From Bartonella elizabethae F9251 = ATCC 49927 (GTDB lineage Bacteria; Pseudomonadota; Alphaproteobacteria; Rhizobiales; Rhizobiaceae), in assembly GCF_000518165.1 (NCBI RefSeq), contig NZ_JADB01000014.1, positions 1-39,607 of the forward strand: a stretch of DNA of 39,607 nucleotides, read 5' to 3'. Shown here piece by piece: positions 920 to 34,161 of the stretch. The number at the start of each line of letters is the position of its first letter. Position 1 is the stretch's first letter. The notes beneath the pieces are model-generated. The model was not told where the DNA came from and did not search any database. It was given only the letters and a program-made list of their open reading frames with translations. The translations under genes and the position numbers were made by a program.

Positions 920-1318
920 ATGTCTATGTCCTCTAAACTGACGCGTAACCAAACATTGGTTTTGAACACTTTAAAGAATGCAAAAGGGCCTTTAAGTGCT
1001 TATGCGATTCTTGACCAATTACGCGAAGAAGGTTTTCGCGCCCCTCTCCAAGTTTATCGTGCATTAGAAAAACTCGTACAATTAAAATGTATTCATCGTC
1101 TTGAAAGTGTAAATGCCTTTATGGTCTGTTTACATCCTGAAAAATGTCAACACGAACTTACAACTTTTATCATTTGCGAAAACTGCGGTACAGTTAATGA
1201 AATACAAAATCAAACGATTGTATCAAGTTTAAAACAAATGGTTCAAGCTTTTGACTTCCAAGCACACAAAAGCACTCTAGAGGTACGAGGTCTTTGTAAA
1301 AAATGCGTAACAAAATAA
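920..1318 (+). CDS. Fur-family transcriptional regulator, Zur-like
   Basis: Encodes 132 residues from ATG 920, which has AAAGGAAG just upstream; a longer reading from 866 has no ribosome binding site. The N-terminal half is a winged helix (…LSAYAILDQL…APLQVYRALEKLV…), the Fur-family DNA-recognition region. The C-terminal half carries the two structural zinc pairs typical of the family, C-E-N-C and C-K-K-C. The short length and the ALEKLVQLKCIHRLES segment resemble Zur (zinc uptake repressor) more than Fur or Irr. No znuABC is next to it; its downstream neighbour is an efflux pair that may be unrelated. A zinc-linked CobW/WD40 operon lies at 35-37 kb. The metal specificity is inferred, not visible. 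Confidence 0.82.
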   Translation: MSMSSKLTRNQTLVLNTLKNAKGPLSAYAILDQLREEGFRAPLQVYRALEKLVQLKCIHRLESVNAFMVCLHPEKCQHELTTFIICENCGTVNEIQNQTIVSSLKQMVQAFDFQAHKSTLEVRGLCKKCVTK

Positions 1319-1476
1319 GACCCTAAACTTGCAAGTTCATATATTTAGCATTATGTTGCAAAGGATTGCCTTATTATTTGAAAAGCTCTTACTGTCCTTG
1401 CATGTATATCACCCTAGCCTATAGAGTGAGGGACTTATTACACTCGTTGGAACATAAATATTGAAAGTATAAAATC

Positions 1477-2553: not shown

Positions 2554-2595
2554 AATAAAAGTCTCTTATAACAACAAGAAAATGACCTTATTATT

Positions 2596-4167: not shown

Positions 4168-4957
4168 GTTTAATTTAAAGTGAGAAATACCTTATTCCTA
4201 TTCTCGATAACTTTAACGTCCCTTAAGGAATAAGATAAATCTACATATGATTCTAAACGCCTTTTTCTGATAAAAATTCTTTGCAATGTATGACTCTTTA
4301 GACAGTAAAAAATAACTTCTCATATGAAAAATTATTTTAGATGAGAGGATACTAAAATAAAGACTTGATCATAAGGGCTCTACACCATAGAAAATAAAGT
4401 AGCTTTTTCTGTAATATTTTTGATTTCTCACCATAGGGCAAAAAAACTATTAAAAAAATATTTTCCCTCTCATGAGATTTCTCATCTTTCGGACAATCTA
4501 TTTTACGCTACTGTCCTCATAAAAACGTTCCTGTAAGATTCTGTGCACTTCACTCTTTTTAAGCTTACCAGAATAGATCACCTTTTTCTTTTTCTATTTT
4601 CCATGGTCCCCTCTTTCTTTGAAGTATTTCATAAAAGATTGATGATTCTTTTGAGTTTTATTTACGTCCCCATTATTTCCTTACGATCAGAGGCTGCTAC
4701 TCTATATAGAGCAATGATTTTTTGCTTCTGCATATAAAATTTGAAATGAGAATCCTGTATTCGACACGCTCATACCATTTGAAAAACATTGTCTTTAGAA
4801 TCTATTCTCTTTAGAGAAAAGAAGTAAGAATATGTTTTTTTAAGAAGTTTTCAAACATGTGATTTTATTTTTTTATGCTCTGTACAAACCCTTTGTTGCC
4901 TGCCAATAGGCTCTCTTTTAATGCTCACAGGGTTGAAAAACGGAATGAATACAATCT
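4168..4957. other. Gene-free spacer with one large inverted repeat
   Basis: No credible gene; a 64-codon open frame at 4543 is low-complexity and lacks a good start. Just after emrB there is an inverted repeat, CTTATTCCT (4191-4199) with AGGAATAAG (4226-4234), nine perfect pairs around a 26-base loop. It has no T tract and so is a poor intrinsic terminator. Confidence 0.6.
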
Positions 4958-5542
4958 TCAAGCCACTTTATGATGCTGAAAACGCCTAGAAACGGTTCGT
5001 TCTCCGCTCGCAACCAAAGTGCCATAACAACCAGAAAGATAGTGTGGTATCAGTTCCAAGCCTTGAAAACGATGCTTTTCGTAAGGACCAGGCATTGCCA
5101 AATTTTCTGTTAAGCGATTTGAAAAACCAAAACGTTGATAAAATTCAAAATCTCCTACCAATAAAATAGCGCCATATCCTAATTTTTTGGCTGTTTCAAT
5201 TGCATGGCGGACTAAAATTGATCCTATTCCCATACCAGAACATTCAGCAGCAACAGCCAAAGGTCCCAAAAGTAAAGCATGTTGTGTTTCATTTTTTTCT
5301 TTAAAAAAAGACACATGCCAAAGACGCACACTCCCCACAAGCTCACCAAGCGCATTTTTAACCACAAAAGAAAGCCCTTTAGCCGCTAACCGACCACGAC
5401 GTAAAGCCTCTGATGACTTACGTTTACGTCCACGCCCCATTGTTGCATCAAGCAAAATTTCTCGATAAGGCTTGTCTGCTTCTTGCTCCAATAAAAGTGT
5501 AAAACATGCCCCATTTTTTGTTTGAAAATTAATCATGTTCAT
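4958..5542 (-). CDS. GNAT-family N-acetyltransferase
   Basis: 194 residues with a GNAT fold. The acetyl-CoA-binding motif A is clear at about residues 95-125 (LGPLAVAAECSGMGIGSILV, containing the Q/RxxGxG/A-type loop as C-S-G-M-G-I-G), followed by GYGAILLVGDFEFYQRFGF, the motif B region of YhbS-like acetyltransferases (COG3153). The substrate is unknown. ATG 5542 is used, but ATG 5536 is equally possible because a GAG lies only a few bases before either. It is convergent with emrB and lies downstream of the ornithine decarboxylase on the same strand (79-base gap), so it could be read through from speF. Confidence 0.85.
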   Translation of the reverse strand: MNMINFQTKNGACFTLLLEQEADKPYREILLDATMGRGRKRKSSEALRRGRLAAKGLSFVVKNALGELVGSVRLWHVSFFKEKNETQHALLLGPLAVAAECSGMGIGSILVRHAIETAKKLGYGAILLVGDFEFYQRFGFSNRLTENLAMPGPYEKHRFQGLELIPHYLSGCYGTLVASGERTVSRRFQHHKVA

Positions 5543-5620
5543 CTCGATGACCCACCCTCTTATAGTGCAATGACAAGCACAGCCAAAAAATCTAAAAACA
5601 CCTATCGTTACAAGGAAATT

Positions 5621-6754
5621 TCAGATCACATACGATCGTAAAGGCTCAAAACCATTAAAGGCAACAGATGCGTAAGTTGCTGTGTAAGCACCCGTTCCAT
5701 GAATCAATATCTTATCTCCGATCGTTAGAGATAAAGGAAGCGGATAAGGTGTTTTTTCATAGAGAACATCTGCCGAATCGCATGTTGGTCCAGCTAAAAT
5801 ACAAGGCTCCATAACCTTATCATCATGAGGGGTCTCAATAGGATAACGAATGGCTTCATCCATCGTTTCAGCAAGACCATTAAATTTTCCAATATCAAGA
5901 TAAACCCATCGGACATTATCATTATCAGCTTTTTTAGAGATCAGAACAACTTCTGTGCGAATAACACCCGCATTGCCAACCATCGCACGCCCTGGCTCAA
6001 TAATTGTCTCAGGAATACGATTACCAAAATGCTTTTTTAATGAATCAAAAACTGCCGTACCATAAGCTTGTTCTGTAGGAACATCTTTTAAATAACGCGT
6101 TGGGAAACCACCCCCCATATTCACCAACTTCAGTGAAATACCTTCTTGTTCCAAATTTTTAAAAACCCCAGCCACATCCGATAAAGCACGATCCCACGCA
6201 TTTAGATCAACTTGCTGAGATCCAACATGAAAAGAAACACCATGAGCTTGCAAACCTAATTGGTATGCGCGTTTTAGCACATCAACCGCCATAGCAGGGA
6301 CACAACCAAACTTGCGTGACAATGGCCACTCTGCACCTTTTCCATCGGTAAGAACGCGGCAAAAAACCCGCGCTCCAGGAGCAGCACGCGCAATTTTTTC
6401 CACTTCTTCAACACAATCAACGGCATAAAGTGAAACCCCCAATGCGTAGGCACGCGCAATATCACGCTCTTTTTTAATTGTATTCCCAAAAGAAATACGC
6501 TCGGGCGTTGCCCCTGCTTTTAAAGCCATTTCAATTTCTGCAACAGAAGCCGCATCAAAAGAAGATCCTAAAGAACTTAGCAAACGCAAGATCTCAGGGG
6601 CTGGGTTTGCCTTTATTGCGTAAAAAATACGAGACTGCGGAAGCGCTTTTTCAAAATTTAAATAATTTTCACGGACAACATCAAGGTCAACAATTAAGCA
6701 TGGACCCTCAGAACGATGTGTTGCAAGAAAATCGCGAATACGTTGCGTTGCCAT
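5621..6754 (-). CDS. speF: Ornithine decarboxylase (fold type III, PLP)
   Basis: Converts L-ornithine to putrescine, the first step of polyamine synthesis; cytosolic. The 377-residue protein belongs to the alanine-racemase-like (group IV) decarboxylases. The PLP lysine is in FYAIKANP (K48). HVGSQ, the glycine-rich MGGGFP, the EPGRAM motif and GPTCDSADV with the catalytic Cys-Asp are all in order. In this family such sequences can be lysine/ornithine-bispecific, so ornithine preference is inferred from the rhizobial speF context. The start is ATG 6754, preceded by GAGGAGAA; a TTG six bases upstream is less likely. A long structured leader of speF type lies upstream. Confidence 0.93.
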   Translation of the reverse strand: MATQRIRDFLATHRSEGPCLIVDLDVVRENYLNFEKALPQSRIFYAIKANPAPEILRLLSSLGSSFDAASVAEIEMALKAGATPERISFGNTIKKERDIARAYALGVSLYAVDCVEEVEKIARAAPGARVFCRVLTDGKGAEWPLSRKFGCVPAMAVDVLKRAYQLGLQAHGVSFHVGSQQVDLNAWDRALSDVAGVFKNLEQEGISLKLVNMGGGFPTRYLKDVPTEQAYGTAVFDSLKKHFGNRIPETIIEPGRAMVGNAGVIRTEVVLISKKADNDNVRWVYLDIGKFNGLAETMDEAIRYPIETPHDDKVMEPCILAGPTCDSADVLYEKTPYPLPLSLTIGDKILIHGTGAYTATYASVAFNGFEPLRSYVI

Positions 6755-6918
6755 CTGCAATTCTCCTCGAGGGAAAGCTCCCCCACTCTATGCTTGGACA
6801 GCCAAAACTGCCAAGAACCAAAAGACAAAGAACACACAACAACCATCCCCATTCTGATTACAAAAAACCAGAAATTAGCTTTGCATGCAGCGAAAGAACA
6901 GCGCGAAAACCGCGTCAT
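6694..6918 (-). CDS. Possible leader peptide overlapping the speF start
   Basis: A 74-codon frame begins inside the speF leader at 6918 and stops 60 bases inside speF in another reading frame. Its first 40 codons are rich in Phe, Trp, Arg and Cys (MTRFSRCSFAACKANFWFFV). The upstream sequence AAAGTAGA is only a weak ribosome binding site. In enterobacteria a short leader peptide controls speF by ornithine-dependent ribosome stalling; whether this frame is an analogue is only a hypothesis. It could also be chance. Confidence 0.25.
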   Translation of the reverse strand: MTRFSRCSFAACKANFWFFVIRMGMVVVCSLSFGSWQFWLSKHRVGELSLEENCRWQRNVFAIFLQHIVLRVHA

Positions 6919-7175
6919 TCTACTTTATCTGCCTTTTTGATTGGAGTTGAGAAAACTACTTCCGCACTGAAGGCAATGAGGTGTGCCTCTATAGTAATCC
7001 CAGCATTTAAAAGCTGGAAGACACCAGAAAGGCCCGCACCGTCGTTGCTTCAAGATGTCCTCATTCTTGCAATTGGCTGTAAGAATGACTGGAGCGGTTA
7101 GTTCCAGGTACCGTACCGGTTGACCTCACCATTTGAGAACCAGCGGACACCCACAGGCACGTGCGACTTTGGGCA
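6770..7175 (-). ncRNA. speF-type structured leader RNA (alphaproteobacterial speF motif)
   Basis: About 400 nt between the promoter and speF has much higher GC than the surrounding spacers and many local stems on the minus strand. Examples are AAGAATG with CATTCTT (7087-7081 and 7068-7062), CCAGC with GCTGG (7017-7000), and a GGTACGGTACC element near 7110. A conserved structured leader of this size upstream of speF is an established alphaproteobacterial RNA motif. I assign it by position, length and structure; I could not align it to the family model. It may control speF in response to polyamines, but the ligand or mechanism is not visible. Confidence 0.7.
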
Positions 7176-7181
7176 AGGAGT

Positions 7182-7210
7182 CCTATAAAACGAATCCTCT
7201 CTCATTTCAA
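7182..7210 (-). promoter_or_regulatory. Probable speF promoter
   Basis: The minus strand has TTGAAA (7210-7205), a 17-base spacer, and TATAGG (7187-7182), placing transcription start near 7175, exactly where the GC-rich structured leader begins. Confidence 0.5.
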
Positions 7211-8190
7211 TCATTTTTTTAATTTTAAACATTTTTTAATTATTAAAGAGAACATGATGCTAAAAAGCAACACTCTCCGCCACCAGATAAAGCCATCCGC
7301 CCACTTTTATGAGATCATTCCCCTACACAATCCTTACAACAGAAATCACAATCTTGCTTTAAAAGCGCCTCTTGTTTAGCTTTCTCATTCTATTTTTCCA
7401 ACATCATCCATAGAAAACAATGCAACATATCACACTCAACACATTCATTTATAATTGATACTTTCATTATTCTAACCTTAGATCAAAAATCCAATCTTAA
7501 AATACTTTCATTTCCTCCTCTCTTACAAATGCATCAATCAAAATCATTTTTTTCACATCACAAGTGTAAAACAGCGTGTGGCACCAAAAAAGTTGAAAAA
7601 AGAGTAAAATACCTTTTATAAATCGCTTTTAAATGCAAGGAGTCCCAACATTGGAATCTAGGGATATCTTGGCTGAAGCAGCAGCATCTTTAAAGATAAT
7701 GATATCCTTTCCCCAACACCCCTTATCTTGCTCACTAATATCCTAAAAAAACACCCGTACTTTCAACATCTATTTCACTCTATCCTTAAAGCAAGAGATC
7801 ATGTAAAATCACTGTGTAATAGAGTCGATATGGTATAACTCAACTGCGTTTCACCATCTTGAAGCTTCATAAAAGAGCGAGCAGATCATCATCACGCACT
7901 GAACCAATGTGCAATAGCTCTTGATATTTAAGAAGATTCATAAGAGACATATCTTTCTTGTATCCTTTTACTCTACAGGACTTTCCTCGCTTGTAACGTG
8001 CAAAAGACATGGATTTTTTAATTGATTCAATATAGAAACAGTAAATTATTATAAATCAATGTTCTAGACTGTTCATCAACGGCTTTTCTATTTTAAAATG
8101 AAAAATATTTAAAAGATACAATCTCCTATCAAATAAAGCAAAGTGAACAATCTATAATGATTATTTATAAATCAATAAATTAATGTAAAG
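7211..8190. other. Gene-free spacer of about 1 kb
   Basis: AT-rich, with stops in all frames; the only longer frame (7161-7379) overlaps the speF promoter and has no recognisable product. The part from about 7852 to 8064 belongs to a degenerate repeat family listed separately. The remainder shows nothing I can name. Confidence 0.6.
7852..8064. repeat. Degenerate intergenic repeat, family R, copy 1
   Basis: Begins with CACCATCTTGAAGCTTCATA, continues through a GATTCATAAGA…CATA core and GCAAAAGACATGG, and ends near TATAAATCAAT. The same order of blocks occurs near 28138-28408 and 33889-34161. The copies differ by many substitutions and short gaps, so they look like old decayed sequence, not a recent insertion. 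No terminal repeats or intact frame are visible. Confidence 0.65.
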
Positions 8191-8193
8191 AAA

Positions 8194-8216
8194 AAGACCG
8201 AATAACATTCGGTCTT
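8194..8216 (-). terminator. Intrinsic terminator of trhO
   Basis: Perfect 10-bp stem AAGACCGAAT / ATTCGGTCTT around a three-base loop; on the minus strand it is followed by TTTCTTT. It lies about 90 bases past the trhO stop. Confidence 0.8.
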
Positions 8217-8302
8217 ATACGATATTTTTCTAAGAAGATTAAAGATGCTTCTCTCTTAAATTTAAGAGAAAAAAGCTGAAATTTAAAGCGCTACAGTAAT
8301 CC

Positions 8303-9232
8303 TTATGTTCCTTGATGCGCATCAATTGCACGCAACTTCAACAATTGAAATTGCCTATGGCGCTCACGAAAACGCTCTCTATCCGCTTCACTACGCGTGT
8401 TATAACAAGCCTCACAAGAAACACCTTCCTCATAATGAGGCGATAATTTGCTTTCAGCATTCAAAGGAGAACGACATGCGCGACAGAGCTCGCGTCCACA
8501 TTCCTCAAGACCATGCTGAACAGAAACCCGCTCATCAAAAACAAAGCATTCTCCCCACCATAAACTTTCCTCTTTTGGAATTGTTTCCAAATATTTGAGA
8601 ATTCCTCCTTTTAAATGGTACACTTGGTCATACCCAAGTTCACGAACATACGCTGTTGATTTTTCACACCGAATACCGCCTGTACAAAACATAGCAATTT
8701 TCTTTTTTTTCTTCAAAACAGCTTCATGTTGACGCACCCATTCAGGAAATTCGCGAAATGTTTTAATTTGTGGATCAATCGCTCCTTGAAAACTCCCAAT
8801 TGCATATTCATAATCATTACGGGTATCGATCAAAATTGTCTCTTCATCTTGAATAAGAGCATTCCACTCTTCAGGCTCCACATAAGTCCCAACAACTTTT
8901 AGCGGATCAACCCCTTCAACGCCCATTGTTACAATTTCCTTTTTTAACCGCACTTTCATGCGATGAAAAGGCATTTTTGATGCCCATGAATATTTAATTT
9001 CCGGCGTTTGAAACGCTGGCTCAGCCGTAATAAAATCGATCAATGCCTCAATCGCTTCACAAGAACCAGCAACAGTTCCATTAATTCCCTCTTGTGCTAA
9101 AAGGAGGGTCCCTTTGATATCCTTTGCCCGACATAAATCCTGCAAAGGCTTCTGTAATTGACGATAATGCTTCAAATCTGCAAAGCAATAAAGTGCAGCA
9201 ACTTTAAAATTCTTTTCCATGTCTTTTGCCAT
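8303..9232 (-). CDS. trhO: tRNA uridine(34) hydroxylase, rhodanese-domain protein
   Basis: Member of the TrhO/YceA (UPF0176) family, which hydroxylates U34 of tRNAs in an oxygen-dependent reaction on the way to 5-methoxyuridine-type modifications. An N-terminal acylphosphatase-like domain (…[18 protein letters not shown]…) is followed by a rhodanese domain with [17 protein letters not shown] and the active loop [12 protein letters not shown], containing the catalytic Cys. A small Cys-rich tail (C-R-A-C…C-E-A-C) follows. The start is uncertain: ATG 9232 (309 residues) is chosen; a TTG at 9256 and an ATG at 9220 are also in frame, and no strong Shine-Dalgarno decides between them. Confidence 0.92.
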
Positions 9233-9332
9233 AACGCGCGTTTCATCCAATTTCAAGATCTATTCATTTACTCTTTAACATATTGTGCTTAATTAAACGA
9301 TATAAATAATATCATCTCGAAAAAAGAACATT

Positions 9333-9998
9333 ATGTGCCAAAAAAGAGAAACCCTTTTATCATACCTCCAAGGACAAACCGTTATACCTATTTTGACCAT
9401 CAACAATTTACAAGATGCTGTACCTTTAGCACGAGCTCTTGTCAAAGGCGGATTAAAAACAATTGAGATCACCTTGCGAACACCACATGCTCTCAAAGCA
9501 ATTCAGATAATGACACAAGAAGTCCCTGAAGCTATTGTTGGGGCTGGAACAATTCTCAACACAACACACTACGAACAAGCCGAACAAGCTGGAGCAAAAT
9601 TCATCGTAAGCCCTGGATTATCCAATGAATTAATCAATTGTGCAAAAAATAGTGAAGTTCCGCTCCTTCCTGGTGCAATGACCCCAAGTGAACTCATGCA
9701 AGCTTTAGACAAAGGCTATTCATATCTTAAATTTTTCCCTGCCAAAGTCGCTGGAGGTCTTGCCTTCCTCCAAGCATTAGCCTCTCCTTTTTCTGAAATC
9801 TTCTTTTGCCCTACAGGCGGTATAACACAAAAAAGTGCAACACAATGGCTCCAACTTCCTAACGTCTTCTGCGTTGGCGGTTCTTGGATAGCACCCCAAC
9901 AGCTCATTGCTATAAAGGACTGGAATTCGATTAGTGCGTTAGCGCATACTGCATCAAAACTTCCCTCTCACCCTACAAAAACGCGCTCTACAACATGA
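9333..9998 (+). CDS. eda: KDPG/KHG aldolase (2-keto-3-deoxy-6-phosphogluconate aldolase)
   Basis: Class I aldolase of the Entner-Doudoroff pathway and of 4-hydroxy-2-oxoglutarate cleavage, 221 residues. TVIPILTINNLQDAVPLARA and the Glu-containing GGLKTIEITLRT (catalytic Glu) are followed by VGAGTILN, FIVSPGLS, PGAMTPSE and the Schiff-base lysine segment YSYLKFFPA; FCPTGGIT closes the phosphate site. The gene ends inside the first copy of a 191-bp tandem repeat derived from the neighbouring fpr gene, so the last five or six residues (TKTRSTT region) come from antisense fpr sequence. The catalytic core is complete, so the enzyme should be functional. Confidence 0.93.
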   Translation: MCQKRETLLSYLQGQTVIPILTINNLQDAVPLARALVKGGLKTIEITLRTPHALKAIQIMTQEVPEAIVGAGTILNTTHYEQAEQAGAKFIVSPGLSNELINCAKNSEVPLLPGAMTPSELMQALDKGYSYLKFFPAKVAGGLAFLQALASPFSEIFFCPTGGITQKSATQWLQLPNVFCVGGSWIAPQQLIAIKDWNSISALAHTASKLPSHPTKTRSTT

Positions 9999-10363
9999 AG
10001 ATGCAGGAGCATTATTCGCCCCTTCAACAAGACCAAAACCTTCACACATCCTTGCACAATCTTTTAACGCCTGCCATAGAACCACAAATCATCACACGAT
10101 CTTCATCAGGAGAAATTTTGAACAAGCCGGTTTCTTAAAAAAACACCAGCCCCTACCATCACTCTACAAAAGCGCGCTCTACAACATGAAGATGCAGGAG
10201 CATTATTCGCCCCTTCAACAAGACCAAAACCTTCACACATCCTTGCACAATCTTTTAACGCCTGCCATAGAACCACAAATCATCACACGATCTTCATCAG
10301 GAGAAATTTTGAACAAGCCGGTTTCTTAAAAAAACACCAGCCCCTACCATCACTCTACAAAAG
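9982..10363 (-). pseudogene. Two extra degenerate copies of the fpr 3' end (191-bp tandem repeats)
   Basis: The block starting CGCGCTCTACAACAT occurs at 9982, 10173 and 10364, an exact period of 191 bases. The third copy is the real C-terminal coding end of fpr. Copies one and two are almost identical to each other, differ from the third by small indels and substitutions (for example ATGAAGATGCAGG against ATAAGTCGCAGG), and no longer encode the fpr tail in frame. They are gene-end duplications, not independent genes. Confidence 0.9.
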
Positions 10364-11180
10364 CGCGCTCTACAACATAAGTCGCAGGAGCATTATTCGC
10401 CCCTTCAACAAGACCAAAACCTTCACACATCCTTGCGCAATCTTTTAACATTGCCATAGAACCACAAATCATCACGCGATCTTCATCAGGAGAAATTTTC
10501 GGTAAACCAGTCGTTTCAAAAAAAACACCGCTCTCCATAACAGTCGTAATGCGTCCCATATGCTCGGAAGGTTCGCGCGTAGTCATAGGATAAAATTTCA
10601 ACTGTTGTGCATATTCCCCAATCAGTGGATCTTGTTGCAAAGAGCAAACAAGGTCTTTTGCATAAGTCAACTCATTCTTTTCACGCGTTGTTTGAATAAG
10701 AATAACTTCTGAAAATTTTTCATAAGTATCCGGATCACGAATAAGGCTTGCAAAAGGAGCAACCCCCGTACCAGTTGAAAGGAGATAAAGGCGTTTTCCA
10801 GGGATAAGAGCATCCAGAACCAGCGTTCCTGTAGATTTTTTACGCATCAGCACTGTATCACCAATTTTAATTTTTTGCAGATGCTCAGTTAATGGCCCTC
10901 CTGGAACTTTTATCGAAAAAAACTCAAGCTGTTCATCCCAAAAGGGACTTGCAATCGAATAAGCACGATAAATCGGCTTTTTTGCATTTGGCAAACCGAT
11001 CATAACAAATTCACCCGAACGAAAACGAAAACTTTCCGGACGATTCAGGCGAAATTTAAACAAACGATCTGTATAATGATAAACTTCTTGAACCGTAAGA
11101 GCGTATACATTCTCAGGAATCGGAAAATTTGAAGCAACGCTGCTGCTGTTTGACGGAACATTGGTAGCAGACGTATTCAT
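10350..11180 (-). CDS. fpr: Ferredoxin/flavodoxin-NADP+ reductase
   Basis: FAD enzyme that moves electrons between NADPH and ferredoxin or flavodoxin; 276 residues. FAD-binding RAYSIASPFW (RxYS) is followed by GPLTEHLQ, then the NADP domain with LLSTGTGVAPFASLI and VMICGSMAMLKDC. The C-terminus VVERAFVE is the typical end of the bacterial subclass. ATG 11180 is chosen because GGGGAAG precedes it; ATG 11192 lacks a binding site. The gene is convergent with eda, and its 3' end has been duplicated twice in tandem into the space between them. Confidence 0.94.
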   Translation of the reverse strand: MNTSATNVPSNSSSVASNFPIPENVYALTVQEVYHYTDRLFKFRLNRPESFRFRSGEFVMIGLPNAKKPIYRAYSIASPFWDEQLEFFSIKVPGGPLTEHLQKIKIGDTVLMRKKSTGTLVLDALIPGKRLYLLSTGTGVAPFASLIRDPDTYEKFSEVILIQTTREKNELTYAKDLVCSLQQDPLIGEYAQQLKFYPMTTREPSEHMGRITTVMESGVFFETTGLPKISPDEDRVMICGSMAMLKDCARMCEGFGLVEGANNAPATYVVERAFVE

Positions 11181-11192
11181 ACACTTCCCCAT

Positions 11193-11804
11193 ATCTTTAT
11201 TGAACGTTAAATTTCGAATCCCTGACGTGATATAGTACGTGCATCACCATCTGCCAACAATTTTCTTAAAACAAAAGTCTTAAGATTAACACTTTTATGT
11301 CCAAATCAATCGCATGAAGAAAACGCCAATACAAATCATATTCAAAGAAAAATAAAAATTTTGAGCCTTAAACAATCACTACACTTTCTTCGCTTTTAAC
11401 ACACAACGCATATTTTCTCTTGTTAAGAAAGCCCTGCAAGTTCATCAAAACAACCTCATCCGCAACCAACAGCATAACATTGCACTCTTCAAAATGATAC
11501 AATACAATAAATTATGCTTTATTTTTTTAATATGCCTCAACAAGAGAAAACAAGTAAAAAACAAAAACCTATGTTCTACAAACTATCAGAAGGTACCGTA
11601 TTGCTAACAACACAAATAAAACTAAAATATCTCTTATATCCAGAGTATCATTTTACATAAAAAACGATTTCATGGTACATAATTCAGTATGGGAGATTTA
11701 TGATTTTGACCGTCGCAAACAGTATCTTTTCCTTGTATCCTAAGGAACCTCTGTAACGTAACCAAAGAAAAAGCCGTACGCACAAACACAGATAAGATTT
11801 AAAA
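11193..11804. other. Gene-free spacer between divergent fpr and alr
   Basis: AT-rich with no credible reading frame on either strand. It should contain both promoters, but I cannot point to boxes with confidence. Confidence 0.55.
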
Positions 11805-12920
11805 ATGAATAAATCCGCTAATGATGAAATAAATCCACACCTCTATGCCGCTGTCGCAACCATTAATGTCAGTGCCATTGTTGCCAATTATATCACTTTA
11901 GCCAAACGTGTAGCGCCAACACAATGTTCAGCAGTTGTCAAAGCAAATGCCTATGGGCTAGGCGCTCACAAAATTGCTCCTGCCCTTTATCAAGCGGGTT
12001 GTCGTACTTTTTTTGTTGCTCAAATCAGAGAAGCATTGCACTTAAAAAGCATTTTACCACCAGATGTCACGATTGCTCTTCTAAATGGACTTCCACACTT
12101 AGCAGAAGAGTTTGTCGCACAGTCTGGTATTGTTCCTGTCCTAAACTCTTGGAATGCCATTGAAATTTGGCAAAAGATTTGTCAAAAAAAGGATAAAAAA
12201 TTTCCAGCAATTGTTCAAATCGATACCCATATGAACCGATTAGGACTTGATCAAAAAGAATTACAAAAACTCATCAAACGCCCTACAATTTTTGAAACCG
12301 CAGACATAAAATATATTCTCAGCCACCTTTCTAATGGAGAAGATGATACCCAGCCATCAAATTATGCCCAATTGACTGCTTTCAAAACTGCCCTTGCACA
12401 ACTCCCCCCTTGTAAAGTTTCCTTTGCGAATTCTGGAGGTATTTTTTTAGGCTCAGATTTTTATTTTGATCTTGTTCGCCCCGGTATTGCACTTTACGGG
12501 ATTGACCCTTCAGAAAAACACCCGTCCCTTCTAAAACCTGTTTTAAAACTTGAAGCCCAAATCATTCAAAATCGCATTGTTGGTGCAGGAAAACCTGTTG
12601 GTTATGGAGAAAGCTTTATAACCAACAGACCAAGCACTCTTGCAACCATTTCTATTGGCTATGCAGATGGTTGGCTTCGTGCTCTTTCAAATAAAGGAGC
12701 TGTTTATTTCAATGGGTACAAACTTCCCATGGTTGGACGGGTTTCTATGGATTCCATTATTGTAGATACAACCGATCTTGATCAAAAGCCTCAAACAGGT
12801 GACTGGGTAGAACTCATTGGTCCCCATCAAACACTTGAAAAAATATCTCTAGATGCCAACACCCTTCCCAATGAAATTTTAACATCCCTTGGATCACGCT
12901 ATAAATACATTTACACCTAA
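11805..12920 (+). CDS. alr: Alanine racemase
   Basis: PLP enzyme making D-alanine for peptidoglycan; 371 residues. The PLP lysine sits in VVKANAYGLGAH (K46). Further landmarks are IDTHMNRLGL, HLSNGEDD, ANSGG, RPGIALYG and the second catalytic base in ISIGYADGW (Tyr); MVGRVSMDS is the C-terminal domain signature. The length is normal. ATG 11805 has only a weak AAGATTT upstream. Confidence 0.95.
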   Translation: MNKSANDEINPHLYAAVATINVSAIVANYITLAKRVAPTQCSAVVKANAYGLGAHKIAPALYQAGCRTFFVAQIREALHLKSILPPDVTIALLNGLPHLAEEFVAQSGIVPVLNSWNAIEIWQKICQKKDKKFPAIVQIDTHMNRLGLDQKELQKLIKRPTIFETADIKYILSHLSNGEDDTQPSNYAQLTAFKTALAQLPPCKVSFANSGGIFLGSDFYFDLVRPGIALYGIDPSEKHPSLLKPVLKLEAQIIQNRIVGAGKPVGYGESFITNRPSTLATISIGYADGWLRALSNKGAVYFNGYKLPMVGRVSMDSIIVDTTDLDQKPQTGDWVELIGPHQTLEKISLDANTLPNEILTSLGSRYKYIYT

Positions 12921-13956
12921 AGGCTCTTTAAACAAATAAACCGCTACAAATCATCACTTTAGAAAATCAGAGAGCTTTTACGAAAGATTTTACAACAATC
13001 AATCATATACCATGTTCATGAGATACCACCCATTTACAAAATTCTCAAAATAGGCGAGTTAATGAGCTGTTTTATAAAAGTAAACGTCACCCAAAACACA
13101 AAAATTGAACTTTTTTCTCCCATAAATGAACGAAGATGATAAACTGAGGATTGATTTTCACCTTTAAAGCTTTTACATTTTTGCAAAATGAGATTGTCTT
13201 TCAACTTTAAAGATGACTCCAACAAAGATAGACAATCCCCCTCCCTCATCTGGCATACAGCCATGAAAAAGCTGGAACTGTTCATAAAGCCCTTTTTGCC
13301 TCACTCTCTGGCGCAAATATGCTGCTATGTTAGGTTTGGATATTGATTGATGGGCAACAGCTAAAGCACACGCGCTCTTAAAAAAATTAAGCCATAAAGT
13401 CAAAAACTGATTTGCAATAAACGAGAAAAATGTGTGAGCTTTTTATTAAGGGACTCTGTAAAAAACAACCATAACACCATTTGGCTTTATGTTTACTTAT
13501 TCTAACAGGTGTTCATCCATATTTTTTGCGTCATCTTCATAAAGAGCCGATAGAAGAGAAATATTTAGACAATTCTTCGCTCGAAAATCTGAAAGGTTGA
13601 CGAGATACAACAACAGAATTTCGCACACCTTTATAGTCAGAAACACTAAAAGTGAATTTATTCAACCAGTCATAGTCTTCTTAGTGAGAATAGCATGTCA
13701 CACCCCATGTAATAAACTGTAACCCCTCTCCCCATAGGTTTTGCTTTCGTTTATATGGAGATTGGCTGGCTTAGAAATAACCGATGCACCTAGTCAACTC
13801 AAACCATGTCATACGATAGAAAAAAGGAGAGTATACCTATCGCTTACAAAGCACAGCTTTTTTGTCAACTTTTTCGATTTTGCTCATGTTGTAAAAACAA
13901 GGAAAAATTCTAGAAAATAGACAAATAACGCCATAGAAGCATAGCTCAATAAGCAC
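12921..13956. other. Spacer of about 1 kb with a decayed gene remnant
   Basis: No intact gene. Broken minus-strand frames between 13034 and 13430 overlap in two phases, as expected of a frameshifted relic; the best conserved part is listed separately. The rest shows nothing I recognise. Confidence 0.6.
13270..13440 (-). pseudogene. Gene remnant A, paralogous to the remnant at 27.6-27.8 kb
   Basis: Read on the minus strand the frame contains CALAVAHQSISKPNIAAYLR. A plus-strand frame at 27640-27735 contains CALTATCQSTSRPNATAYLK, and the DNA also aligns upstream (ATTGCAAATCAG… against ATTGCTAATCTA…). Both lack plausible starts and break up after about 50 codons. The parent family is not recognised. 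Confidence 0.6.
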
Positions 13957-13988
13957 AAAGCCCACACAAAACGTGTGGGCTTTTTTTA
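13957..13988. terminator. Intrinsic terminator at the end of the gcv operon
   Basis: AAAGCCCACAC / GTGTGGGCTTT with a five-base loop, an 11-bp stem, followed by TTTT on the plus strand and GTGCTTATT on the minus strand. It lies 33 bases past the gcvP stop on the minus strand; the better T tract is on the plus strand, so it may act in both directions. Confidence 0.8.
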
Positions 13989-14020
13989 TGCAAATAAACA
14001 AATTAAGTACATATTTTTAT

Positions 14021-16825
14021 TTAATAAGTATTTCCCAAGGGCGGACACGAACAAATAAGCATTCTATCTCCCGCAACATTATCAATCCGCGATACAGGAG
14101 GCCAATATTTGTTGGCTGGATCAACAGAGCTATTGGGAAAAGCAGCTTCTTGTCGCGAATAGGGTCGCGCCCAAGCATCATCTAAAGTATCTGCGACTGT
14201 ATGCGGAGCATTCACCAATGGATTATTGTCTTTTGGCCAAACCCCATTCCCAACTTTTTTTGCTTCTTCAGCAATGGAGAGTAATGCATCACAAAAACGA
14301 TCAATTTCTGCTTTTGGTTCTGATTCCGTTGGCTCAATCATCAAAGTTCCCGGAACAGGAAACGACATCGTGGGCGCATGGAATCCATAATCAATGAGAC
14401 GTTTTGCAATATCATCAACACTCACCCCATACTGATCTTTTAACAGGCGTGTATCCACAATACATTCATGAGCAACACGTCCATGTTTGCCCCGATAAAG
14501 AATGGAATAAGCCGGTGAAAGACGTGCAGCAATATAATTAGCATTTAAAATAGCTATTTGTGTTGCATATTTTAAGCCATCAGCGCCCATCATTCGAATA
14601 TACATCCATGTAATTGCGAGAATAGATGCACTGCCATAAGGAGAAGCTGAAACTGCATGCGTTGTGCCATCTTGTTCATGCCCTGGTAAAAATGGTTTGA
14701 GATGCGCTGCGACCCCAATTGGTCCCATCCCAGGTCCCCCCCCTCCATGAGGAATAGCAAATGTTTTATGCAGATTCATATGACAAACATCAGCCCCAAT
14801 ATCTGCAGGACGCGCAAGCCCTACAAGTGCATTGAGATTAGCGCCATCAAAATAAACTTGTCCGCCATTTTCATGAATAATGGAACAAATTTCTTTAATG
14901 CTTTCCTCATAAACACCATGGGTTGAAGGATAAGTAATCATGAGAGCGGCCAATTTGTCCTTATGCAATTGCGCTTTCATTTTGAGATCATCGACATCAA
15001 CATCGCCATCGCTTAAACATTTTACTACAACAACTTCCATGCCCGCCATATGCGCCGAAGCTGGGTTCGTACCATGCGCAGAAGCCGGAATAAGACAAAT
15101 AGTCCGTTGCTGTTCTCCCCGTGAGTGGTAATAGCGTCGGATCGCCAAAAGCCCTGCATATTCACCTTGAGCACCAGAATTTGGCTGAAAAGACACTTGC
15201 GCAAATCCTGTAATTTCACACAACCAGGCATTTAACTGATTGATCATCTCCAAATAACCCGCCACATCCTCTTGTGAAACAAAAGGGTGTATATTGGCCA
15301 TGCTTGCCCAACTTACAGGCATCAATTCAGCCGCTGCGTTCAGCTTCATTGTACAAGAACCAAGAGGGATCATCGCCCGATCCAGTGCCAAATCCTTATC
15401 GGCTAAACGACGCAAAAAGCGCATCATATCTGTCTCTGAATGAACTGCATGAAAAAAGGGTTGAGAAAGAAAAGCAGCATCCCGCCTTTGACCAAAGAGT
15501 CTTGGAGACGCCTGATCAACGAGTTTTGCACCTAAAAGCTGTGCTAGAGCAGCAGCATCTTCTTCTGTCGACAATTCATCAAAATTGATTGCAATGGTAT
15601 CATCATCGAGAACACGAACAAGACGCCCACTCATCTTGGCTTGATGCGCAATTTCACGCGCTTTTCCCTTCACAACAATGCTAACACAATCAAAAAAAGC
15701 TTCACCGTCACAAGAAACGCCAGCAGCCTCTAAACCAGCAACAAAACGACATGTTAAATGATGAATCCGCTGCGCAATTTTTTGTAAGCCTTTTGGCCCA
15801 TGCCAAACAGCATAAGCGGTTGCCATATTAGCCAACAAAGCCTGAGCTGTACAAATATTTGATGTCGCTTTATCGCGCCGAATATGTTGTTCACGTGTTT
15901 GCAAAGCTAAACGAAAACCAACGCGCCCTTCTGTATCGACGGATTGCCCCACTATACGCCCTGGAATAAGGCGTGTGAGCGCATCACTCACCGCAAGGTA
16001 ACCAGCATGGGGACCACCAAATCCCATCGGAACACCATAACGCTGCATCGAACCGACAACAATATCAGCGCCCCATTTTGCCGGTGCTTCCATAAGCGTA
16101 AGCGCTAAAGGATCAGCCACAACAATAATCAGCGCACCTTTTTCCTTTGCCTCTTTTATGACCTCACTATAATCATGAAAAGAACCTTTTGTATCGGGCC
16201 AAGAGAGAACAATTGCCGCTGTATCAGGACAAATTTCTTTCTCAAAGCTAATCCGAATGCCCTGTGTTTCAGCACGCGTTTGCACAACACTCAAAGTCTG
16301 AGGATGTAAAAGGCTCTGAAGAGAAATTTTTGTTTTTTTCTCCCGCGCAAAACGAACAGCAAGAGCATTGGCTTCCGCTAAAGCCGTTGCTTCATCAAGA
16401 AGAGAAGCAGCAGCAACAGGCAGGCCTGTCAGTTCACTAATCAATGTCTGAAAATAAAACAGGAGTTCTAAACGACCTTGGCTAATTTCTGCTTGATACG
16501 GCGTATAAGCGGTATACCAAGCTGGATTTTCAAACAGATTTCGTAAAATAACCGGAGGCACAAATGTGCCGTGATATCCTTGCCCAATAAAACTTTTATG
16601 CACACAATTACGCGCCATCATTTTGGAGAGTTCTTCCAAGGCTTGGTTCTCACTGGCAGCCTTGGGAAGGTTCAGTGAACGTCCCAAATGAATAGAATTG
16701 GGAACCGCTTGAGAAATGAGTGTATCAACACTATCGAGCTCTAAAACATCAAGCATTTTTTGTGTTTCATCAGGACGCAGCCCAATATGTCGAGAAGAAA
16801 AAGAACGCTCGATCATGACACTCAT
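14021..16825 (-). CDS. gcvP: Glycine dehydrogenase (decarboxylating), P protein
   Basis: PLP-dependent P protein of the glycine cleavage system; it decarboxylates glycine and passes the aminomethyl group to lipoyl-GcvH. The single 934-residue chain contains both halves that are split into GcvPA/GcvPB in some bacteria. The N-terminus RHIGLRPDE is typical. The PLP lysine lies in the C-terminal half, in [13 protein letters not shown] (about residue 686), followed by a glycine-rich [11 protein letters not shown]. The start codon overlaps the gcvH stop as ATGA, indicating translational coupling. An alternative ATG nine bases later is possible. Confidence 0.97.
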
Positions 16826-17190
16826 CCAATCAAAGCTTTATAAGCATCTTCATCTAATAACCCTTCCAGTTGCGTTTCATCCTGCACTGTCATTTTCCAT
16901 AACCAGCCTTCTGTTTCGGCTTTCTGATTGACCAGTTCAGGATTATCAGCCAGTGCTTCATTGATTTCGACCACTTCACCATCAAGAGGAGAATAAACAT
17001 CTGAAGCTGCTTTAACGGATTCCACCACAGCCGCCGCCTCTCCTTTGGAAAGTTTTGTCCCACTTTGTGGTAAATCAACAAAAACCAAATCGCCTAATTG
17101 TTCTTGCGCATAATGTGTAACCCCAACAGTCACTATTTGTCCTTCAACGCTAAGCCATTCGTGGTCTTGTGTGAAATAAGTTTTAGACAT
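16822..17190 (-). CDS. gcvH: Glycine cleavage system H protein
   Basis: Small lipoyl carrier protein, 122 residues, that shuttles the aminomethyl intermediate between P, T and L proteins. The lipoylated lysine is K60 in [14 protein letters not shown], and [10 protein letters not shown] and GWLWKM are family landmarks. A few bases separate it from gcvT (6), and it overlaps gcvP by four. AAGGATG precedes the start at a suitable distance. Confidence 0.97.
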
Positions 17191-18309: not shown

Positions 18310-18358
18310 AATAACTCCAAAGCTGCGCTAACGCCCACACAATATGGTCGTCTCTGCA

Positions 18359-18540
18359 CCCCTCTGTCATCAACCTGAGAGACTCGCGAAAAGACTTTCG
18401 CTTACACCTTCGGCGCGGGCTCTCCCGACTTTCCAGATCTGCCTTCCTCCTTTTACGGTCCTTAAAGCCTGAGAGATTATGGGCTATTTCCCCTTCGGCG
18501 GCAATGCGAAAACTTGCAATCTGCACTCTCCCGCAAAAGA
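18359..18540 (-). promoter_or_regulatory. Tandem glycine riboswitch (two aptamers)
   Basis: On the minus strand, aptamer one runs from GCGGGAGAGTGCAG near 18535 through GCCGCCGAAGGGG to CTCTCAGGC near 18470. A short linker leads to aptamer two, GTCGGGAGAGCCCGC through GCGCCGAAGGTG to CTCTCAGGTTGATGACAGAGG ending at 18359. GGGAGAG, GCCGAAGG and CTCTCAGG are the invariant aptamer segments. Both aptamers are complete. Placement before gcvT fits the known role: glycine switches on its own degradation. Confidence 0.96.
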
Positions 18541-18578
18541 ATGAAAGAAACGATAACGCTCTTTCCAGCATGTTTTAA

Positions 18579-19874: not shown

Positions 19875-20068
19875 ACACTCTTTAGGCAATTTTTCTTTCA
19901 AAACCCCACTGTTATCAAGATGATATCTTAGTGTCTTGAGAAAAAGAGTTTTACAATCCGACTTTACAACTTTTCAAAGTCTTTCAAACGATATTTTTAT
20001 CTATCGTGGATCCCTTGATGACATCAAAACTTGAAAAAACCAACAAGGAAAATGGGCTGTAATTTCAA

Positions 20069-20300
20069 TTGACGATTGAAAGCTATTGCCTTAAGGTCTG
20101 GTCAGTATACACGGCGGTCAGGGGGGCAAATTCAAACATTAAATCCTACTTTGCAAATATACTTCCGGGACTCTTGTTATGTCCAAGTGCATTTTACGCA
20201 CTAAAAGCAAGAGGCTGACTCGGTTTCAGCACTTCCAGATCCCGGAAGTCTCCAAATCCTGAAAGTTGAATGCCGAGGGTGCTTGCACCTGAAAGGCGTG
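20069..20300 (+). ncRNA. Brt-like RNA, copy 1
   Basis: A possible promoter is TTGACG (20069-20074), 17 bases, TAAGGT. The predicted fold is ACTTCCGGGA (20161-20170) with TCCCGGAAGT (20240-20249), ten perfect pairs, enclosing CTCTTG / CAAGAG (20171-20176, 20208-20213) and an apical AGTGC / GCACT. A second hairpin GGGTGC / GCACC lies near 20277-20288. Assignment to the Bartonella Brt RNA family rests on my recollection of that family's setting (about 200 nt, next to an XRE-type protein). Confidence 0.6.
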
Positions 20301-20402
20301 AGTATAAGCCCAATATCCAGATTTTAATGACATTTCTATAGGCTAATCTATAAGCTAAAAAATGCACTTTGATTTGCTTGAAATAAGCAATTTGAATTTC
20401 AA

Positions 20403-20634
20403 TTGACGATTGAAAGCTATTGCCTTAAGGTCTGGTCAGTATACACGGCGGTCAGGGGGGCAAATTCAAACATTAAATCCCACTTTGCAAATATACTTCC
20501 GGGACTCTTGTCATGTCCAAGTGCGTTTTACGCACTAAAAGCAAGAGGCTGATTCGATGTCAGCACTTCCAGATCCCGGAAGTCCCCAAATCCTGAAAGT
20601 TGAATGCCGAGGGTGCTTGCACCTGAAAGGCGTG
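20403..20634 (+). ncRNA. Brt-like RNA, copy 2
   Basis: Same elements as copy 1, 334 bases downstream, with a few substitutions. One of them, A to G in the apical loop, gives AGTGCG / CGCACT and so adds a base pair to the apical stem. Confidence 0.6.
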
Positions 20635-20736
20635 AGTATAAGCCCAATATCCAGATTTTAATGACATTTCTATAGGCTAATCTATAAGCTAAAAAATGCA
20701 CTTTGATTTGCTTGAAATAAGCAATTTGAATTTCAA

Positions 20737-20765
20737 TTGACGACTGAAAGCAATTGCCTTATGAA
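20737..20765 (+). promoter_or_regulatory. Candidate promoter of the xre leader (copy 3)
   Basis: TTGACG (20737-20742), 17-base spacer, TATGAA (20760-20765). The -35 box is kept in all three copies; the -10 is weaker in copies 1 and 2 (TAAGGT). Confidence 0.4.
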
Positions 20766-20771
20766 TAAAGC

Positions 20772-20990
20772 TTGTGTTTTTGGTCGTATACGCGACGATC
20801 AAATAGGGTCTGGAAGCCCGAAAAACTCAAACTAGAAATAAAACCGCTTTTTGCGGGTATCCCGGAATTTCCGGGGGCTCTTGTTATGTCCAAGTGCATC
20901 TTACGCACTAAAAGCAAGAGGCTGTTTTGAGTCAGCACTTCCAGACCCCGGATACCAATGCGAGGGCGCTCGCAACCGGAGGGGAAACAA
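20772..20990 (+). ncRNA. Brt-like leader RNA of the xre/trp regulator (copy 3)
   Basis: About 220 nt from the inferred start to the regulator's GTG. TCCGGGG (20870-20876) can pair with CCCCGGA (20946-20952), enclosing CTCTTG / CAAGAG (20878-20883, 20915-20920) and AGTGC / GCACT. The same TCCGGG can instead pair with CCCGGA at 20861-20866. GCGAG / CTCGC (20960-20973) forms a hairpin just before the Shine-Dalgarno. This matches the arrangement I recall for Bartonella Brt RNAs, which lie directly upstream of the DNA-binding protein Trp. Confidence 0.68.
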
Positions 20991-20991
20991 A

Positions 20992-21372
20992 GTGCAAGCT
21001 AAAAATTCACATTCTTACGACATTTCTTTAGGCCAAAAAATTCGCTTCAGAAGAAATATGATGGGGTTTTCTCAAAAACAATTAGGAAGTCATTTGGGCG
21101 TAACGTTTCAACAAATCCAAAAATATGAAAAAGGTTTAAATCGTGTGAGCGCAGCACGTTTACAGGAAATTGCTGATGTACTGGGTGTTCCCGTTTCCTT
21201 CTTTTACGCTGATTGCACAAAAAAAGAAGAGACTTCCTCGCATTGTGATGACAGAATATCAAGTAAAGCAGAATATTTACTTTTAAAAAATTTCAGAGAG
21301 CTTACCCGCAAAAAACAAAGAGCAATTTTGCAGTTGATTTCTGATGAAAAAAACAGCCCCTTATTTTTATGA
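20992..21372 (+). CDS. XRE-family helix-turn-helix regulator (Trp-like)
   Basis: 126 residues from GTG 20992, which has GGAGGGG (20978-20984) seven bases upstream. A longer frame from 20851 would translate through the structured leader and is rejected. The XRE helix-turn-helix covers about residues 14-73 (SLGQKIRFRRNMMGFSQKQL then GVTFQQIQKYEKGLNRVSAA), with the rhizobial-type IADVLGVPVSFFYAD end; the C-terminal 50 residues are charged and helical. In B. henselae such proteins are reported, from memory, to act with Brt RNAs on the adhesin gene badA; the target here is unknown. Confidence 0.85.
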   Translation: MQAKNSHSYDISLGQKIRFRRNMMGFSQKQLGSHLGVTFQQIQKYEKGLNRVSAARLQEIADVLGVPVSFFYADCTKKEETSSHCDDRISSKAEYLLLKNFRELTRKKQRAILQLISDEKNSPLFL

Positions 21373-27148: not shown

Positions 27149-27559
27149 AAGACTGAAGATTTCACACACCAGCTTTATCATCCTCTTTACCACTTCCAAA
27201 GTGAAACCACCTCCCCAGTACACTCATTGGTGATCGAAAGCATTCATTTTAAAAAAACAAGCATTTTTTCTCTTATCTTAAACAGTTTTATCGATATAAG
27301 CTCCCATTTTGTAATCAAGTAAATAGTTTGAATATCTTCAATATAAAAGGATATTAAATGAAAGCTCTTACAACATTCAAAGCTCTCTCTCTCACCGTAA
27401 AAATGATAAATGACCATGTTAAATCACTCTATTGATCACAATCCAATCATAATACCCCATCAAAACAGTCGAGCAGAAAGAACAACCCGCTATGACGAGG
27501 AAAGCTATAAAACCTCCACCATAATACCATAATTATGCCAGATCACTCTTAATGTATTG

Positions 27560-27780
27560 AGTGTTGTCTCCCAAAGCCTTAGATAAAAAACAGGAACATC
27601 TCGCCAATTCATTGCTAATCTATTCATGGTTTTATAACATTCTTTTCTTAAACAAGGTTTGTGCTTTAACAGCGACCTGTCAATCAACATCTAGACCGAA
27701 TGCCACAGCATATTTGAAACACAGATTGAGTGGGATAAAAGTTCTAAACACTGTTCCTACTGTTATACCAAAGTGCAAGC
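27560..27780 (+). pseudogene. Gene remnant B, paralogous to the remnant at 13.3-13.4 kb
   Basis: The plus-strand frame contains CALTATCQSTSRPNATAYLK, aligning with the minus-strand remnant A. The upstream DNA aligns as well, including TTTTAT and TGTGCTTTA blocks in order. The reading frame loses similarity after about 45 codons. No start codon with a ribosome binding site. Confidence 0.6.
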
Positions 27781-28087
27781 GAGTGCATTGCAGATCTGTC
27801 AAGCATAATTTCTAAAACCAGCTCATTTGAAAAGAATATTAAGATGTAAAAGTATCAACCAATTTCCATCTTTACCATCATTCTTGAGTTCGGCATTAAG
27901 GCTTTCAAAAATGCCTCACGCAATATTCTTCAAATAATGAAGATTGCGCATTATCTCATACTTTTATCTATCGCGTTTTTAATGAATCACAACCTGCTCG
28001 TAAAACAGAATGCCCCAAACGGAATAGGCTTGGCACACATCTTCATACGCTTTTAAAAATACATCAAGGTTCTCACGTCCATTTTCC

Positions 28088-28408
28088 ATTTCGCAACAGC
28101 AGCCGTAAACGGTATAATAACCAATCCATTGCCCCCTCATCTTGACGCTTCATAAAAGAGAAAACCGTTACCATCCGACACTTTGCCAGCATCCAATGTT
28201 GTACCCCACTACCCTTAATACTTGAGATGGTTCAAAGACATAGCTTGTCTGTACAGTTTCAGTCCACATAGATGCCCCCGCTTTTAAACGTGCAACTGAG
28301 TGGTTCTAATTGTTTCAACATGGAATGCGTTTAAAATGAGAAAATCTTACGATATTCTGGAGTCGAATTCAGGATGAATGATACGATATTATACTTATAA
28401 ATCAATAT
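28088..28408. repeat. Degenerate intergenic repeat, family R, copy 2
   Basis: CATCTTGACGCTTCATAAAA at 28138 is identical to the start of copy 3 at 33.9 kb. Blocks CCAATGTTG, GAGATGGTTC, CTGTACAGTTTCA and TATAAATCAATAT follow in the same order. About 50 bases before the shared start also align between copies 2 and 3 (TTTCGCAAC… against TTTCGCGAC…). Confidence 0.7.
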
Positions 28409-33837: not shown

Positions 33838-34161
33838 AATTTCGCGACGCTGCACATCGAAGGGCATAAACGGTAAATTCATTGAGAACCACCATCTTGA
33901 CGCTTCATAAAAGAGCAAGCCGGCACCACCACACATTTTACCAGCCGCCTAATGTTGCAAGACCAAACCTTTAGCGCTTGAGACGATTCATAAGAAGCAT
34001 ACCTGTACAGTTTCACGCCTTACAGCTAATCTACTTGTGATGGGCAAGAGACATGGTTTTTATTCACTCAAAATGGAACAGGTTTGGAATAAAAAAGACT
34101 TATGATTTTCGAGACTCTCATTCAACATGAAAAAATAAACACTCTTTATAAATCAATATAG
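33838..34161. repeat. Degenerate intergenic repeat, family R, copy 3
   Basis: Contains CACCATCTTGACGCTTCATA (33889), GATTCATAAGA, CTGTACAGTTTCA, GGCAAGAGACATGG and TATAAATCAATAT. The GCAAGAGACATGG block links it with copy 1 (GCAAAAGACATGG), and the GTACAGTTTCA block with copy 2. Confidence 0.7.

Follow-up and report, generated by a model that had tools for sequence, protein, structure and literature searches.

A tandem Brt-trp locus of Bartonella elizabethae with two leader-only copies, and occurrence of its core hairpin outside the genus

Introduction

A regulatory RNA that is present three times in front of a single regulator gene may be a means of raising RNA dosage or a by-product of duplication, and an array in Bartonella elizabethae F9251 raises the question of which of these applies. 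According to the original description (PMC5387305), the Brt1–9/Trp1–9 loci of B. henselae each contain one RNA per regulator, with trp8 being a pseudogene. Brt is there an abundant transcript of 194–203 nt, followed after 10–18 nt by a small XRE gene (108–152 aa), and its specificity for Bartonella rested on BLAST. A review (PMC8070961) mentions a heme response of Brt1 as well as an increase in trp1 transcription on deletion of the 3' end of Brt1.

Results and discussion

Layout of the array

The window, by which we mean the whole stretch of 39,607 nt that was analysed, corresponds to contig C11 of a draft assembly with 39 contigs and a total of 1.96 Mb. A preliminary description of this DNA had recorded three exact copies of a 334-bp unit. 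The tandem arrangement was confirmed, with unit starts at 20061, 20395 and 20729 and hence a spacing of 334, but the copies are not exact. Units 1 and 2 are 98% identical (gap-free over 300 nt, with differences at 7 of 334 positions), whereas unit 3 has in common with them only blocks at shifted spacing: a 33-nt promoter block (94% identity), a 57-nt core (89%), and blocks of 22 and 46 nt. Tandem Repeats Finder gave the array a score of 1339 with 2.1 copies, and the repeat is therefore not due to chance. Features of the locus are listed in Table 1.

Table 1 Coordinates of features of the array and of a related locus. Positions are those of the window unless another locus is named.
Feature	Position	Strand	Basis or remark
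Copy 1 (w1), trimmed Brt-type unit without regulator	20061..20394	+	R1 match 20089–20282, 89.2 bits
Promoter-like block, copy 1 (TTGACG-17-TAAGGT)	20069..20098	+	Profile score −1.5
P3 core hairpin, copy 1	20161..20249	+	P1 and P3 pairs kept in 132/134 cells, four copies of the type
Copy 2 (w2), trimmed Brt-type unit without regulator	20395..20728	+	R1 match 20423–20616, 85.9 bits
Promoter-like block, copy 2	20403..20432	+	Profile score −1.5
P3 core hairpin, copy 2	20495..20583	+	Same pairing count as copy 1 (132/134 cells)
Copy 3 (w3), complete Brt leader and promoter block	20729..20991	+	R1 match 20771–20986, 196 bits, E 1.6e-74
Promoter-like block, copy 3 (TTGACG-17-TATGAA)	20737..20766	+	Profile score 17.1, 8th percentile of 99 reference Brts
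P1 hairpin, copy 3	20780..20802	+	Consensus structure, 98.3% of cells paired
P3 core hairpin with P3a, P3b and P3c, copy 3	20871..20951	+	Part common to traM leaders
Window equivalent of the B1099 element junction	20941..20955	+	
P4 hairpin, copy 3	20960..20973	+	98.0% of cells paired; by analogy near the Brt 3' end given in PMC5387305
Shine-Dalgarno region of trp	20974..20984	+	Sequence; absent from copies 1 and 2
trp/xre gene, GTG start, 126 aa	20992..21372	+	Pfam HTH_3, E 4.8e-13
Integrative element inside the orthologous Brt, Bartonella sp. B1099	about 938–16863 (locus L178)		

A Brt family model and the complete third copy

We aligned 51 leaders (alignment A1), comprising copy 3, leaders of named Bartonella, and paralogues from the same genome. 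The consensus fold consists of P1, P1b, P2, P3 with arms a to c, and P4, with 42 pairs. Pairing was found in 96.7% of cells, compared with 93.6% after shuffling and 32.5–42.7% after sliding, and cells changed on both sides of a pair numbered 95 compared with 26.4 after shuffling. A covariance model built from A1, and thus from Bartonella leaders alone (R1), matched 27 places in the genome of origin and had matches in at least 49 of 71 Bartonella genomes. Searches of more than 40 genomes with R1, or with the model R2 described below, used stricter filters and scored a fraction of each genome's candidates; the tallies of these large searches are therefore lower bounds.

Consistent with the initial recognition of the units as Brt-like leaders, R1 detected all three copies, of which copy 3 belonged to the training set and copies 1 and 2 did not. 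Copy 3 has the sequence and the fold of a Brt leader. If, by analogy, the RNA is assumed to stop where P4 ends, the GTG of the small XRE gene is located 18 nt downstream, and size and spacing fit the published pairs (PMC5387305). A full regulator gene is present behind this last copy alone, as had been noted before. The locus thus resembles Brt1–9/Trp1–9 of B. henselae in its folded leader of about 200 nt, the small XRE gene behind it, and the many copies per genome, and differs from them in the two upstream units that lack a regulator and several leader parts. The plasmid copy of B. grahamii ("26 + 1 plasmid" in Table 1 of PMC5387305) was also found here, in NC_012847.1.

Several simple modes of action were considered for the leader. 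The Shine-Dalgarno region of copy 3 was mostly open on folding, and that of 49 of 59 folded leaders was mostly paired, with varied partners; leaders without a GGNGG motif in this stretch had been skipped in the folding set. A single conserved partner, as expected for occlusion by a fixed element, was not found in these 59 leaders. No terminator-like site was present at P4, and the published Brt 3' end was accordingly rejected as a simple intrinsic terminator. Many copies contain a short ATG-opened frame in P3 (ATGTCCAAGTGC), but the ATG is absent from several rows of A1, including L113, L003 and L006, and a conserved leader peptide was therefore rejected. A phage origin of the leader was likewise rejected, since none of 50,697 phage records matched the copy 3 leader DNA at E 0.01.

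Parts kept and lost in copies 1 and 2

The claim that copies 1 and 2 keep the RNA leader holds for the central hairpin P3, which is present together with a P1-like hairpin; it does not extend to P1b, P2 and the Shine-Dalgarno region, which are lost, or to P4, which is altered, and there is an insertion on the 3' side of P3. The parts lost or altered, like the missing reading frame, are those of use to a gene downstream. Neither copy has the full Brt leader fold or a regulator gene directly downstream. A frame of nine codons begins at a GTG in each, in agreement with the remnant of about nine regulator codons reported earlier, and the codons that align with trp are broken by stops; the longest frame behind these copies in the interval tested was 20 aa and not Trp-like. 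Among the four copies of this type, the pairs of P1 and P3 are kept almost throughout (Table 1), one P1 pair having changed on both sides.

Age and variation of the orthologous site

The locus lies between genes that we take, from the encoded proteins, to be a Trm112-like small gene and asd. This position is orthologous in many Bartonella; trp orthologues of named Bartonella are 74–97% identical and have asd behind them, the closest named Trp being that of Bartonella sp. B1099 (97%). Single units of the copy 1 type occupy the same position in Bartonella sp. MM73XJBT.G (84% identity) and in genome G025 (86–87%), and the type is therefore older than the duplication in the window. Relative to MM73XJBT.G, 4 of 87 sites differ in P3 and 12 of 63 just after it (Fisher p 0.007); the corresponding values for G025, 10 of 86 and 13 of 63, are not significantly different (p 0.17). 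Given that the tail of the copy-1-type unit, with differences at 5 of 83 sites (p 0.74), is about as conserved as P3, the latter is not uniquely conserved. The P4/Shine-Dalgarno region of copy 3 shows no change at 35 sites relative to both relatives.

Eleven named loci differ in what they carry at the orthologous site. In four (L052, L053, L056, L058), Brt-trp is preceded by an RNA-only unit, which three others (L054, L055, L057) lack; L060 has a further Brt with trp, and L051, L059 and L123 have an integrase at the junction. In B1099 the orthologous Brt is split into segments corresponding to copy 3 positions 1–227 (88%) and 213–644 (99%), about 16 kb apart. The intervening element is adjoined at one end by a tyrosine integrase (Arm-DNA-bind_3, Phage_integrase) and codes for a Toprim protein, a DUF3987 protein and a Type ISP restriction-modification protein. 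Its right junction recurs, together with a 96% identical integrase, in Bartonella sp. AU16XJBT and in B. grahamii ATCC 700132. Its left junction recurs in G020 and G054, which may be the same genomes as these two. The site of the array is rearrangement-prone. Elsewhere in the window, positions 13134–13655, 27553–28131 and 33839–34000 resemble the integrase end of the B1099 element, the first two also as integrase protein, and are interpreted as remnants of related elements.

Such variation, together with the fast change just after P3, is what would be expected if copies 1 and 2 were dead duplicates at a site often rearranged by recombination and integrative elements. The retained pairing of P1 and P3 and the persistence of the unit type in three lineages argue against this explanation, which we regard as doubtful, though not negligible.

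Promoter blocks and RNA dosage

The preliminary description had further proposed that RNA dosage has been raised at this locus while the protein stayed single, and copies 1 and 2 would then be active Brt genes kept to increase Brt RNA relative to one regulator. Each copy does have a −35-like block, and copies from three lineages retain the P3 pairing. We scored these blocks with a profile built from 99 named Brts with trp (median 37.5; 99th percentile of random window stretches, −3.9). The degraded blocks of copies 1 and 2 scored −1.5, compared with 17.1 for copy 3, and the proposed increase in dosage was accordingly not borne out. The stretch from −10 to P1 is also 13 columns shorter in copies 1 and 2 than in copy 3, so that, at the usual spacing, transcription would begin within P1. 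A generic sigma-70 scan yielded no plus-strand promoter at any of the three copies.

RNA-only Brts of the named loci have mostly kept the promoter block (median 35.8, n = 47, vs 37.5, n = 99, for those with trp), and some have lost it, as is apparent from the lower percentiles (25th, 16.0 vs 30.4; 5th, −25.5 vs 11.6). The 30-nt block upstream of Brts, such as that of copy 3, is conserved also between −35 and −10 (TGAAATTACTT). This conservation suggests a putative regulator binding site, perhaps for a Trp itself.

RNA-only Brts are frequent, which favors the dosage explanation. We examined 26 of the 27 R1 places in the genome of origin, leaving out one weak place of 22.8 bits: 11 have a Trp-like frame of at least 90 aa directly behind, 13 lack one, and 2 are followed by stretches of N. 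For 11 of the 13 without an intact trp, another Brt follows on the same strand within 900 nt, and 9 of these 11 directly precede an intact Brt-trp. Among 150 Brt matches in named Bartonella loci, 100 are followed by trp, 48 lack a Trp-like frame of at least 90 aa, and 2 are at an edge, the RNA-only share being biased here because the loci were fetched by their trp gene. A partial Trp frame is present behind 11 of the 48; four of these frames are 77–87 aa and may be still working proteins. The rule of one RNA per regulator, cited in the preliminary description, thus stands for B. henselae as published and fails for the genus. An RNA-only unit upstream of a complete one is a common architecture in this genome and the prevailing order in the named loci: with R denoting RNA-only and F a Brt with trp, the runs in these loci include 20 RF, 2 FR, 7 FF and 2 RRF. 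The prevalence of the RF order would be expected automatically if a 5' leader segment is duplicated.

A second RRF array, separate from that of the window, is located on contig C17 (unit starts 10341, 10731 and 11121; locus L181, to 11700). It has the order RNA-RNA-RNA+trp with a 390-bp unit, and its leaders are full, at about 186 bits each with R1. The regulator-less units resemble products of trp-frame deletion between similar stretches at the start and end of the frame (ATGCAA). Judged by its sequence, the C17 array fits the dosage idea better than the window array. For the window, the degraded promoter blocks and the absence of P1b, P2 and the Shine-Dalgarno region from copies 1 and 2 make the dosage explanation improbable. 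A wrong repeat count in assembly, conceivable for a draft genome of 39 contigs, is highly improbable in view of the differences between copies 1 and 2, the far greater divergence of copy 3, and the assembly of related units in other species.

The reading that we prefer is that of a Brt-trp locus with a tandem-duplicated 5' part, in which copy 3 is probably an intact switch and copies 1 and 2 leader-only duplicates that keep P3 and are heading to loss. Taken by themselves, these two copies are most likely duplicated leader segments in which P3 persists and which either are in decay or give rise to little transcript. The 5' part of Brt-trp (promoter, leader and first codons) would have been duplicated in tandem. 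The intact leader would act in cis as an expression switch for the regulator, its P3 core binding a ligand, a protein or another RNA, and most transcripts would end near P4, giving the Brt RNA of about 200 nt. Copies 1 and 2 would yield at most little P3-bearing RNA, which might compete for the same partner, and would be on the way to loss. Competition of gene-less copies with the gene-bearing one may serve as a working hypothesis for the family as a whole, and is more plausible for the C17 array than for the window.

The P3 core outside Bartonella

In a sample of 199 genomes of the family, R1 found matches in at least six: the genome of origin, one other Bartonella, and four from outside the genus (E 4e-10 to 6e-7). 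Three of these four matches cover exactly the P3 core and lie upstream of a TraM gene (Pfam E 7.6e-17, 7.2e-28 and 1.4e-17) beside a LuxR-type gene; behind the fourth lies a frame of 98 aa for which Pfam gave no match. Given that three of the four de novo matches stand before a TraM gene, a chance origin was rejected. BLAST with one of the non-Bartonella leaders returned 406 places in 332 plasmid records (E 1e-5). We fetched 14 non-Bartonella plasmid loci, in nine of which the next gene is annotated TraM; in the other five it is, once each, of XRE type (HTH_3, E 3.2e-10), of DUF2285/RovC type, of AraC type at a distance of more than 200 nt, hypothetical, and uncharacterised with LuxR beside it. 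R1 matched 13 of the 14 rhizobial plasmid loci at 21.6–35 bits, but these loci were chosen by BLAST and are therefore not independent of the family search.

An alignment of the P3 core (A2) from 10 Bartonella and 16 other leaders kept 21 pairs, 14 of them with changes on both sides; some of the loci in A2 had themselves been detected by R1, or by BLAST from L160, and its copy 3 row is cut at the 3' end. The P3 model R2 found matches in at least 35 of 297 genomes of the order, 32 of 289 of the class and 21 of 249 of the phylum, with the genome of origin included each time. Nine downstream proteins of 28 R2 loci, chosen by hand and thus not a random sample, comprised three TraM, three HTH_3, one RovC DNA-binding, one nuclease homologue and one unmatched protein. 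Because the core was found outside the genus with a model of Bartonella leaders alone and covaries across genera, these sequence comparisons indicate that P3 is not genus-specific, and the published specificity is not upheld for the core.

The traM/traR circuit of rhizobia is well studied, and a literature search on the traM leader yielded no RNA class or family for it. Like Brt, the traM leader region of Rhizobiales plasmids has a P1 loop UACGC, a P1b-like hairpin, the P3 core UAUGUCCA..CUAAA, a GC-rich 3' element, and a small regulator gene directly downstream. Unlike Brt, it is followed mostly by TraM and is GC-rich in sequence.

Rfam returned no family for the array at gathering score, and no credible match emerged from 19900–21100 when E values up to 10 were admitted; the candidates CRISPR-DR45 (21.4 and 19.3 bits) and Afu_304 (14.8 bits) were far below cut-off. 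The four de novo leaders likewise matched no family, apart from an Atu_Ti1 piece at the far end of one locus (L159). A similar, P3-like fold is shown by sRNA-Xcc1 (RF02221; PMC2996969, PMC12444791). This family was absent from the window at gathering score, and from 19900–21100 at E up to 10. One R2 place (L202) matched it below cut-off (36.2 vs 53 bits; E 5.9e-5 in 301 nt, 0.012 in a 60-kb scan), and 13 of 58 RF02221 places outside the genome of origin coincide with R2 places, as read from the match lists; 14 control genomes gave no RF02221 match. On the other hand, R2 reached E 1e-3 or better at only 2 of the 15 RF02221 loci, and none of the five RF02221 places in the genome of origin is a Brt place. 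sRNA-Xcc1 is thus a possible distant relative of the P3 class, judged from these matches, rather than the family itself. The five places are one on C18 (11659–11746, L219) and four on C1, two of the five being over cut-off; that on C18 is about 40 nt before the gene of a beta-solenoid/hexapeptide protein, and this protein by eye resembles frames of the B1099 element.

AbcR1/AbcR2 of rhizobia are tandem sRNAs and are not known to be a regulator leader; they are like the array in being tandem copies of one RNA, and unlike it in that the RNA is a different one.

We consider it fairly probable that Brt, the traM leaders, and the leaders of XRE and other small-regulator genes of Alphaproteobacteria form one unrecognised class of leader RNA around P3. 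This class would be distantly related to sRNA-Xcc1 and borne by mobile elements, and its amplification in Bartonella would have produced arrays whose gene-less members can influence the gene-bearing copy at the end. The results correct the view of Brt as a genus-specific pair of one RNA and one regulator, and, if the wider class is real, a puzzling Bartonella RNA becomes testable in harmless laboratory strains of rhizobia, and its ligand or partner can be sought through the natural variants on the 332 plasmid records.

Other features of the window

A speF leader and an ar45 sRNA are adjacent at 6869–7174 on the minus strand, upstream of a decarboxylase-like gene. Tandem glycine riboswitches are present at 18354–18543, also on the minus strand, with what are presumably glycine cleavage genes behind them. 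A 191-bp tandem repeat at 9968–10499 (2.8 copies, 97% alike) overlaps the ends of the frames 9333–9998 and 10350–11192.
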